Source: Candidatus Iainarchaeum sp. | Lineage (GTDB): Archaea > Iainarchaeota > Iainarchaeia > JAADDC01 | Assembly: GCA_030445695.1 (NCBI GenBank) | Contig: JASUTF010000004.1 | Location: 1-38,875 of the forward strand | Reading direction: 5' to 3' | DNA length: 38,875 nucleotides | In this document: in pieces, positions 3,673 through 36,872 of the stretch | How the letters are laid out: every line of letters starts with the position of its first letter | Numbering within the stretch: position 1 is the stretch's first letter | Translations under genes and position numbers: made by a program | Notes under the pieces: model-generated | Seen by the model: the letters and a program-made list of their open reading frames with translations, nothing else | Databases searched by the model: none | Told to the model about the DNA's origin: nothing

Positions 3673-3747
3673 GGGCCCGTGGTCTAGCCTGGCTATGACG
3701 TCGCCCTTACGAGGCGAAGGTCCCCGGTTCAAATCCGGGCGGGCCCA
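3673..3747 (+). tRNA. tRNA-Val (anticodon TAC)
   Basis: Manual cloverleaf: acceptor GGGCCCG/CGGGCCC, anticodon arm TCGCC-CTTACGA-GGCGA, T arm CCCGG-TTCAAAT-CCGGG. No encoded CCA. Confidence 0.95.
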
Positions 3748-3756
3748 CTTCTCTGC

Positions 3757-3866
3757 ACATTTCATTTAGCTGCGAATTCGTATTCAGGGGATCTTCGACC
3801 CCCTTGTACTCAGTTGTGGGTACGGGTTCGTAGAACCCGTGGCCGCGTTCGCGGCTCAATGAAATG
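3757..3866 (+). repeat. structured element downstream of tRNA-Val (long imperfect hairpin with internal hairpins)
   Basis: CATTTCATT-T-AGCTGCGAA (3758-3776) pairs with TTCGCGGCT-C-AATGAAATG (3848-3866). Internal hairpins are GGGGaTC-TTC-GACCCC and ACGGGTTC-GTA-GAACCCGT. First 56 nt are homologous to 36733-36787. Confidence 0.75.
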
Positions 3867-3875
3867 GGCTTCGCG

Positions 3876-3892
3876 ATCCGGGCAGGCCCACT
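3876..3892 (+). repeat. partial 3'-end copy of tRNA-Val
   Basis: ATCCGGGCAGGCCCACT versus tRNA ATCCGGGCGGGCCCACT (3733-3749): 16/17 identical. Confidence 0.85.
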
Positions 3893-8652: not shown

Positions 8653-8677
8653 CTCCGGTGCCGGGCGACAATCCTTT

Positions 8678-8761
8678 GCGGGGGTGCCCGAGGGGACAAA
8701 GGGGCCGGATTGAGGGTCCGGTGGCTTAGTGCCTGCCTGGGTTCGAATCCCAGCCCCCGCA
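8678..8761 (+). tRNA. tRNA-Leu (anticodon GAG)
   Basis: Class II tRNA: acceptor GCGGGGG/CCCCCGC, anticodon arm CCGGA-TTGAGGG-TCCGG, long variable arm, T arm CTGGG-TTCGAAT-CCCAG. Confidence 0.95.
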
Positions 8762-8843
8762 TACCCAATCATCTTTCTGTTCGATGACCTGTCGAGCGTA
8801 AGCGAAGACAGGGCGCGTCCGGCCAAAGCACTTGGCCTTCGTG

Positions 8844-8858
8844 ATCCCAGCCCCCGCA
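8844..8858 (+). repeat. partial 3'-end copy of tRNA-Leu
   Basis: ATCCCAGCCCCCGCA is a 15/15 match to tRNA 3' end 8747-8761, also preceded by TTCG. Confidence 0.85.
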
Positions 8859-8887
8859 CTTTTATGTCCTTATATCCTCTTTTTCTA

Positions 8888-8943
8888 GGCGATGATGACG
8901 TGTACAACCGCTGACCGGTGATGACAAGCAAACCGTCTGAGCC
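8888..8943 (+). ncRNA. C/D box sRNA candidate (2'-O-methylation guide)
   Basis: GGC-G-ATGATGA (C) - CGTGTACAACCG (12 nt) - CTGA (D') - CCG - GTGATGA (C') - CAAGCAAACCGT (12 nt) - CTGA (D) - GCC. Canonical archaeal geometry with terminal GGC/GCC stem. Upstream TATA-like CTTTTATG about 25 bp before. Confidence 0.85.
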
Positions 8944-8979: not shown

Positions 8980-10236
8980 ATGAGCGTCGTATCGGAGTAT
9001 CTAAAGTTTCTGGGGAACAAAACGGAGGAGGAAGTTGTCGAGGCGGTTCTCAAATTGGCAAAGAGGGCAGGTTTCCACAACATAGAGGAGATCGATTCCC
9101 TCTCGAAGGGAGACCGCGTGTATTACCGCAGGGGGAACTTCCTGGCACTGGCGGTGATCGGTGACGGCGACGAGGGTAGAATCGTCGTTTCCCACGTCGA
9201 TGCGCCCCGCATTGACCTGAAGCCCCGGCCCTTCGTGGAGATGGACGGTTACGTATATCTGAAGACCCACTACTACGGCGGAATCAAGCCCTACCAGTGG
9301 ATAGGGGTCCCCCTTGAGATCAGGGGGAAAGTAGTGACCGTGGACGGTGAGGAGTACTCCGTTTCCATCCCGACGGTCATAACAGACTTCGCCCCGCATC
9401 TCGATAGGAACTGGGGGGACAAGAAGGTCTCGGAGGCGTTCGACCCGGAGAAGCTCGAGCCCATTGTTGCCCTCGGGACGAAGGATGGCGTTCTGGAGAA
9501 GATAAAGGACGAGTTCGGTGTGGAGGAGGCGGACTTCCTTTCTGCCGACCTGAAACTCGTTCCGCGCATACAGCCGGAGATCTTCGGGGCCCACAGGGAA
9601 CTAATCATGGCCTATGGCCACGACGACCGTTCCTGCGTCTTCTCCTCCGCCAGGGCGATAATGGATGCTGACTACCATGGGGGCATCTCTGTGGCACTCT
9701 TTGTGGATCGCGAGGAGACGGGCAGCACGACAGAGGGCTCCGCCGCCTCCCGGGTGGTGGACCACTTCCTCATCACCCTGCTCAGGAAACTGGGGAAAGG
9801 GGGTGACTTCACCTCCCTACTGGACTTCTACGCGCGTTCAAGGGTAATATCGGCGGACGTTACCGCGGGTTACGACCCGCTCTACGGCGATCTATACGAC
9901 AAGGAGAACGCCCCGAAGCTGGGTAACGGCGTTGTTGTATCCCGCTACTCCGGCACGGGTGGGAAGTACTACGGCAGTGAGGCAAGCGCCGGCTACGTCG
10001 CGTGGATCCGCAGAGTCCTCGAGGAAAACGAGGTGCCATACCAGTCCGGGACGCTGGGCAAGGTGGGGACGGCCGGCGGGGGAACGGTGGCCACATACTT
10101 CGCCGTCAGGGGTGCTGATGTGGTGGATATGGGGCCTGCAGTCCTTTCCATGCACTCCCCCGTCGAAGTGATGGCAGGAGCGGATCTGGAGTCCGCCTAC
10201 AGGGCCTACAGGCACTTCTACGAGTGGGTGGATTGA
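8980..10236 (+). CDS. M18-family aspartyl aminopeptidase
   Basis: VSHVDAPRIDLKPRPF, YGHDDRSC, DREETGSTTEGSAAS and MGPAVLSMHSPVEV motifs typical of M18 metallopeptidases. Confidence 0.9.
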   Translation: MSVVSEYLKFLGNKTEEEVVEAVLKLAKRAGFHNIEEIDSLSKGDRVYYRRGNFLALAVIGDGDEGRIVVSHVDAPRIDLKPRPFVEMDGYVYLKTHYYGGIKPYQWIGVPLEIRGKVVTVDGEEYSVSIPTVITDFAPHLDRNWGDKKVSEAFDPEKLEPIVALGTKDGVLEKIKDEFGVEEADFLSADLKLVPRIQPEIFGAHRELIMAYGHDDRSCVFSSARAIMDADYHGGISVALFVDREETGSTTEGSAASRVVDHFLITLLRKLGKGGDFTSLLDFYARSRVISADVTAGYDPLYGDLYDKENAPKLGNGVVVSRYSGTGGKYYGSEASAGYVAWIRRVLEENEVPYQSGTLGKVGTAGGGTVATYFAVRGADVVDMGPAVLSMHSPVEVMAGADLESAYRAYRHFYEWVD

Positions 10237-10291
10237 GCTCAGGACAGAGTGGTTTCATCACCTTCAGCTACACCCGTTCTCATCATCGCCC
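10235..10291 (-). ncRNA. C/D box sRNA candidate (2'-O-methylation guide)
   Basis: Minus strand reads GGGC-G-ATGATGA (C) - GAACGGGTGTAG (12 nt) - CTGA (D') - AG - GTGATGA (C') - AACCACTCTGTC (12 nt) - CTGA (D) - GCTC. Terminal stem GGGC/GCTC. Confidence 0.8.
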
Positions 10292-36515: not shown

Positions 36516-36532
36516 GGGGCCGTGGTGCAGCC
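36516..36532 (+). repeat. partial 5'-end copy of tRNA-Pro
   Basis: GGGGCCGTGGTGCAGCC versus tRNA-Pro 5' GGGGCCGTGGTGTAGCC (36649-36665): 16/17. Immediately follows the TATA-like GTGTATATGACC. Confidence 0.85.
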
Positions 36533-36645
36533 CACCGAGTGCTTCGGTGGAACGCCCGCGGGTGGGGTCTGCGACCCCACGCACATCCGCTGTGGGTGGT
36601 CGAGCGGAAGCGAAGACCGTCCGTCGTCAGGGCAGAGAATCTGAC
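36532..36645 (+). repeat. tandem hairpin array upstream of tRNA-Pro
   Basis: CCACCGA-GTGCT-TCGGTGG (36532-36550), GTGGGGTC-TGC-GACCCCAC (36562-36580), GGTC-GAGCGGAAGCGAA-GACC (36598-36618), GTCAG...CTGAC (36626-36645). Confidence 0.8.
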
Positions 36646-36648
36646 CAG

Positions 36649-36724
<76 letters not shown>

Positions 36725-36732
36725 CTGCTAGT

Positions 36733-36850
36733 ACATTTCATTTAGCTGCGACTTCGTATCTAGGGGGTCGTAGACCCCTAATACTCACCCCATCACGACG
36801 TTGTCGTGTGCACACAAGCAGAGCTTGCGATGCGGCTCGGTGCGGCGAGC
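36733..36850 (+). repeat. structured element downstream of tRNA-Pro
   Basis: First ~55 nt homologous to 3757-3812. Hairpins GGGGTC-GTA-GACCCC, CACGAC-GTT-GTCGTG, CAAGC-AGA-GCTTG, GGCTCG-GTGCGG-CGAGCC. Confidence 0.78.
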
Positions 36851-36851
36851 C

Positions 36852-36872
36852 TTCGAATCCCGGCAGCCCCAC
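36852..36872 (+). repeat. partial 3'-end copy of tRNA-Pro
   Basis: TTCGAATCCCGGCAGCCCCAC versus tRNA TTCGAATCCCGGCGGCCCCAC (36705-36725): 20/21. Confidence 0.88.

Follow-up and report, generated by a model that had tools for sequence, protein, structure and literature searches.

The RtT repeats of the E. coli tyrT operon are structured repeats that lie 3′ of a tRNA and carry a copy of the tRNA 3′ end; they form a tandem array at one tRNA operon and are not known to have an upstream type. The units described here also couple a structured repeat to a copy of a tRNA 3′ end, but they occur at many tRNAs, include an upstream type and have no match in Rfam. Casposons produce duplications of 1-27 nt (median 15), target tRNA 3′ ends and a protein-gene 3′ end, and in some cases have palindromic inverted repeats; they are kilobases long, carry Cas1 and PolB, and their target overlaps only 4-7 nt of the tRNA 3′ end (PMC4046053). 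Our units resemble them in duplication length, in the kinds of target and in the inverted repeats of some copies, but are gene-free, overlap the tRNA by 15-24 nt, use its 5′ end too and reside in a host without Cas1. Integrase-type elements at archaeal tRNA genes, such as PYG1 (PMC9897764) and a 1.8-kb element of Caldiarchaeum (PMC3293823), are bounded, as our units are, by a complete tRNA at one end and a tRNA fragment at the other end. Those elements, however, are 1.8-23 kb long, encode a recombinase and occupy one or few tRNAs, whereas the units here are about 0.1 kb, non-coding and present at half of the tRNAs, on both sides of the gene.

Other comparisons are with small elements. Mitochondrial hairpin repeats, including the fungal double hairpin elements, are likewise small single or double hairpins located in intergenic regions beside tRNA genes and have no known enzyme, but they are mitochondrial, and the account of them does not mention duplicated tRNA ends (PMC2800124). 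The palindromic elements of Rickettsia are similar as palindromic repeats of 100-150 bp that tolerate insertion in genes, but they lie within protein-coding genes that remain functional and are not tied to tRNA ends (PMC3767692). SMN1 and SM3A of Sulfolobus islandicus are, like our units, short, ORF-free and multicopy, with direct-repeat flanks and with inverted repeats at the ends of some copies (PMC3718332). The units here differ from these two in their strong preference for tRNA ends, their 15-24 nt duplications, stems that vary while pairing is kept, inverted ends that are not clear in all copies and the lack of a known parent transposon. MITEs are of similar size (PMC3718332, PMC10969869), and our units share with them a short, gene-free and multicopy make-up and a target-site duplication (17 nt, with an empty orthologous site, at a C/D sRNA). 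The units work like a MITE that targets tRNA ends, although their membership of that class is only putative, since they have no known parent transposon and only some copies have clear inverted ends. The literature searched, outside subscription journals and preprints, yielded no matching description and no account of miniature elements that are specific to tRNAs and occupy half of the tRNA genes in a small DPANN-type genome.

The window analysed here is a stretch of 38,875 nt from the archaeal MAG G000 (664 kb, 88.6% complete). An earlier note on this DNA had singled out two similar cores, 33 kb apart and downstream of different tRNAs, as members of a dispersed family with conserved secondary structure. 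Both cores lie exactly where claimed (36733-36787 and 3757-3812), and ARAGORN and Rfam agree that they follow tRNA-Pro(GGG) and tRNA-Val(TAC). They are identical in about 45 of 56 aligned columns, with a local score of 65 that rules out chance similarity (the maximum for the same query was 28 in 20 shuffled windows). The further copies that such a family should have were found across the genome and its relatives: in G000 the core also follows tRNA-Pro(CGG) and tRNA-Val(GAC), with a fifth copy after tRNA-Ser(GGA), and more copies are present in the relatives G003 and G004. The supposition that changes fall largely in hairpin loops while the stem is kept holds in that the hairpin is retained and its loop differs, but one outer pair differs as well (U-A to U-G).

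The boundaries drawn around these cores were, however, too narrow. Each core makes up only the left portion of a larger unit, which begins at the tRNA 3′ end and runs through to the duplicate of that end (36726-36872 and 3750-3892; Table 1), and two other units, upstream of tRNA-Pro (36516-36648) and after tRNA-Leu (8763-8859), fell outside the original observation altogether. The idea of a structured family is thus upheld, with many more copies, but the layout that defines it had been overlooked, namely the duplicate of the host tRNA end, the presence or absence of units between species, and the sites at an sRNA gene and a protein-gene end. Taken together, these features point to insertion with target-site duplication, beyond a mere structured RNA family.

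Table 1. Intact tRNA genes, inserts and partial tRNA copies in the 38,875-nt window.
Feature	Position	Strand	Details
Partial copy of tRNA-Pro(GGG) 5′ end, 17 nt	36516..36532	+	16/17 identical to tRNA positions 1-17
Upstream insert of tRNA-Pro, 116 nt	36533..36648	+	module P1 + CGCGGGT-P2-ACGCAC at 36533-36584
tRNA-Pro(GGG), intact	36649..36725	+	ARAGORN, Rfam
Downstream insert of tRNA-Pro, 126 nt	36726..36851	+	holds core 36733-36787
Partial copy of tRNA-Pro 3′ end, 21 nt, TTCGAATCCCGGCAGCCCCAC	36852..36872	+	20/21 identical to 36705-36725
tRNA-Val(TAC), intact	3673..3748	+	ARAGORN, Rfam
Downstream insert of tRNA-Val, 126 nt	3750..3875	+	holds core 3757-3812; ends are inverted repeats
Partial copy of tRNA-Val 3′ end, 17 nt, ATCCGGGCAGGCCCACT	3876..3892	+	16/17 identical to 3733-3749
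tRNA-Leu(GAG), intact	8677..8762	+	ARAGORN
Downstream insert of tRNA-Leu, 81 nt	8763..8843	+	GTCGAGCGNAAGCGAAGAC common with upstream tRNA-Pro insert
Partial copy of tRNA-Leu 3′ end, 16 nt	8844..8859	+	15/16 identical to 8747-8762

Each downstream unit in the window (Val, Pro, Leu) consists of an insert of 81-126 nt followed by a 16-21 nt copy of the gene's own 3′ end, and the upstream unit of tRNA-Pro has the mirror layout of 5′-end copy, insert and intact gene. The upstream tRNA-Pro insert matches covariance model R1 (49.7 bits, E 1e-6) and has near copies at Arg, Pro, Ile and Ala tRNAs; the downstream tRNA-Pro insert has a copy at tRNA-Pro(CGG) that is 83% identical, and the tRNA-Val(TAC) insert one at tRNA-Val(GAC) that is 97% identical. 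In the tRNA-Val insert both ends close a stem with two hairpins inside (fold z-score -7.0), and none of 1000 shuffles gave terminal inverted repeats as good. Such repeats are clear in this insert and in the G003 Cys and G007 Ala copies; they are not clear in the window Pro and Leu inserts, which fold little better than their shuffles (z -0.7 to -2.0). A candidate C/D box sRNA, sR1-like, lies just 3′ of the tRNA-Leu unit (window 8888-8942, + strand; 44.0 bits against a gathering score of 45), and in G004 this same sRNA directly follows tRNA-Leu with no unit between. A second C/D box sRNA candidate (snoPyro_CD, 10236-10290, - strand) scores 35 bits, below its gathering score of 45.

Genome-wide, 19 of the 39 tRNA genes called by ARAGORN in G000 have at least one unit (12 upstream and 9 downstream units in all), and half of the tRNA genes are without any insert. 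Two additional G000 units are likely, one at Ala(GGC) at a contig end and one at Pro(TGG) with a weaker copy. The inserts are about 70-170 nt long, non-coding and multicopy, and the duplications that flank them measure 15-24 nt over the 12 upstream and 9 downstream G000 sites. Upstream copies stop near tRNA position 15, 17 or 20, while downstream copies begin in or beside the T loop and mostly finish 0-3 nt beyond the gene. Among 160 tRNA genes from five genomes, partial copies of tRNA ends were found at 23 upstream and 25 downstream positions (a few of the latter being adjacent tRNA genes), compared with none when the ends were shuffled. Matches at tRNA-Trp and a few in G001 are adjacent tRNA genes and were left out of the unit counts; a tRNA-Ser call of 575 nt in G003 (L166) was discarded as an ARAGORN artefact.

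Inserts at unrelated tRNAs have modules in common. The commonest consists of a hairpin P1, a short linker and CGCGRG(G/T)-P2-(A/C)CRCAC, with 47 distinct copies in four genomes, and the core of the earlier note is built on the same plan with TCGTAT-P2-ATACTC. That substitutions respect the stems, as a conserved structure demands, is borne out in the larger alignment of this related module: in 33 aligned copies both partners have changed in seven of the eight P2 pairs, and pairing is kept in 93.9% of P2 cells. That percentage is biased upwards because the copies were partly selected for P1/P2 pairing, but this bias does not account for the variety of pairs. The covariation score for P1 and P2 together was 0.536; shuffles gave 0.227 +/- 0.018 and slid partners no more than 0.183. 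P2 stems resemble one another within a genome but not from one genome to the next, a pattern that looks like bursts or homogenisation.

A covariance model built from this module and applied to 25 genomes found 16 copies in G000, 15 in G001, 30 in G002, 36 in G003, 9 in G007 and 4 in G008, with one borderline match in G009 and none in the 15 genomes outside the family; among the genomes searched, the module is confined to one archaeal family (Micrarchaeota/Diapherotrites MAGs). By-eye comparison with tRNA positions placed all G000 copies at tRNA genes or contig ends, and about nine-tenths of the copies over four genomes beside tRNA genes. A pattern scan of 257 Gb of genomes gave 12 matching stretches; the records of G002 and G003, both of the same genus as G000, account for 11. 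Rfam 15 returned only tRNAs above threshold in the window, the weaker matches being tRNAs, C/D sRNAs and chance-level hits; as no Rfam covariance model matched the inserts, we rejected a described RNA family, RtT included. A viral, phage or plasmid origin was likewise rejected, since two module patterns had no match in IMG/VR and the tRNA-Pro unit had none in phage and plasmid collections.

Members of the genus carry units at different tRNAs, at loci whose flanking sequence is shared on one side or both, and the window tRNA-Leu and tRNA-Val sites are empty in G004. The cleanest occupied/empty pair is a C/D box sRNA locus that precedes a pilin-like gene: G000 and G001 have the sRNA without interruption, and in G002 it is followed by an insert of about 66 nt with the module inverted and then by a repeat of the final 17 nt of the sRNA. 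In G003 a copy located after a protein gene has on its flanks an imperfect duplication of that gene's end, about 25 nt long, and at tRNA-Met of G002 the module is inverted. The sRNA, protein-gene-end and tRNA-Met copies support DNA insertion with target-site duplication; for the third non-tRNA copy (L266, G002), no duplication was found.

From this evidence we consider it probable that the units are non-autonomous, hairpin-rich mobile elements with target-site duplications of 15-24 bp and a strong preference for tRNA gene ends. An element would use a staggered cut to enter the first ~15-20 or last ~15-24 bases of a tRNA gene or, in rare cases, the terminus of a protein gene or C/D sRNA gene. 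In a tRNA gene one cut would fall at a mature end and the other inside the D- or T-loop region. Fill-in repair would then duplicate the bases between the cuts, so that the element would end up between a complete tRNA and a fragment. Many upstream duplications start exactly at the mature tRNA start, which suggests that insertion is targeted, not random with selection afterwards. Upstream inserts would leave the original promoter outside and so probably be transcribed as a tRNA leader, and downstream inserts probably as a trailer; at several upstream units TATA-like boxes precede the tRNA copy, and they are almost never found within the insert, a placement that makes transcription of the insert with the tRNA probable. 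The conserved hairpins with their variable stems are probably what the transposition machinery recognises, whether as single-stranded DNA, cruciform or RNA. The elements themselves are gene-free, so the enzyme must work in trans, and no gene-bearing copy was seen among the loci read.

Which enzyme this might be was addressed by domain searches. Neither Cas1 (PF01867), expected in the element or host of a casposon or mini-casposon, nor the tyrosine recombinase (PF00589) of integrase-type elements was found in the incomplete MAGs G000, G001, G003 and G004. The Y1 (HUH) transposase (PF01797) that a REP or IS200-IS605-type hairpin element would have in its genome was absent from G000-G008, and the reverse transcriptase (PF00078) that a SINE-like retroposon would need was absent from G000, G001, G003 and G004; within the genus, reverse-transcriptase domains occur in G002 only (L285 and L286, on C1 and C8, in open frames of 1607 and 1876 aa). 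As they were not found in the host, a casposon, a tyrosine integrase, a Y1 transposase and a reverse transcriptase were all rejected as the engine. The absence of these four enzyme types from G000 also counts against reading the units as mobile elements, as do the duplication length, which varies over 15-24 nt (most transposases give a fixed length), the several inserts without clear terminal inverted repeats, among them the window Pro and Leu inserts, and the strong bias in orientation towards the tRNA strand; that the host is an incomplete MAG is a further weakness.

The best-surviving alternative, which we nevertheless judge unlikely, is that the inserts are functional structured RNA leaders or trailers, co-transcribed with the tRNA and regulating its folding or maturation; in competition with the genuine acceptor strand, the additional one can produce an alternative fold that encloses the insert. 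Strong pair covariation, the location of nearly all copies on the tRNA strand and the placement of the TATA-like boxes agree with such a role, and at some isoacceptors the P1 hairpin and tRNA 5′ copy are kept across species, in some upstream units with P2 wholly changed, which also fits selection on RNA. A regulatory domain is, however, difficult to reconcile with the insert-free half of the tRNA genes, with orthologous sites that are empty in relatives, with the inverted, sRNA-gene and protein-gene copies and with the decay of some tRNA end copies.

We hold it very improbable that larger elements, which depended on an integrase or casposase and used tRNA genes as attachment sites, were later deleted internally and left the units behind, even though the order of complete tRNA, element and T-loop-to-3′-end fragment is that of archaeal integrated elements (PMC9897764) and the tRNA 3′ ends, 1-27 nt duplications and palindromic inverted repeats of casposons are similar (PMC4046053). 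The same short modules, however, recur at many different tRNAs, both upstream and downstream, and an integrase requires a matching attachment site of its own. Neither integrase nor Cas1 was found in G000, G001, G003 or G004, and the Cas1 of G002 adjoins a Cas2-like gene in a CRISPR-like setting. In a further scheme, slippage or recombination would have duplicated part of a tRNA gene in tandem, and the spacer would then have evolved into hairpins. This would account for duplicated ends that adjoin the gene, but its probability is negligible and we rejected it because the intervening modules are common to unrelated tRNAs and even an sRNA gene, and slippage imports no common sequence.

Within the preferred reading of targeted mobile elements, we propose, tentatively and with considerable doubt, an undescribed archaeal element whose ends would be recognised by hairpin shape and not by sequence, and which would use the ends of small genes for structured RNAs (tRNA 5′/3′, C/D sRNA) as insertion sites, its enzyme cutting at the mature RNA end and in the D-/T-loop region so that the host gene is always restored. 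The family may lead to a structure-recognising transposition enzyme, and its natural occupied and empty pairs lend themselves to the study of mobile DNA that targets an essential gene harmlessly.

The tRNA fragments in these units and contig breaks at the repeats can mislead annotators over tRNA counts and assemblies. Four G000 contigs break at inserts or within tRNA genes (C4 start, C8 start, C11 end, C27 start), probably because the repeats defeated short-read assembly. At three tRNA loci of G001 and G003 (L135, L158, L205) several inserts stand in tandem at one tRNA, as if newer elements had entered beside older ones. For the G000 locus L021 (C29:4679-4786) the ARAGORN call is Gly(CCC) with a 17-nt intron, but the gene is probably that of a different intron-bearing tRNA, perhaps Tyr(GTA).
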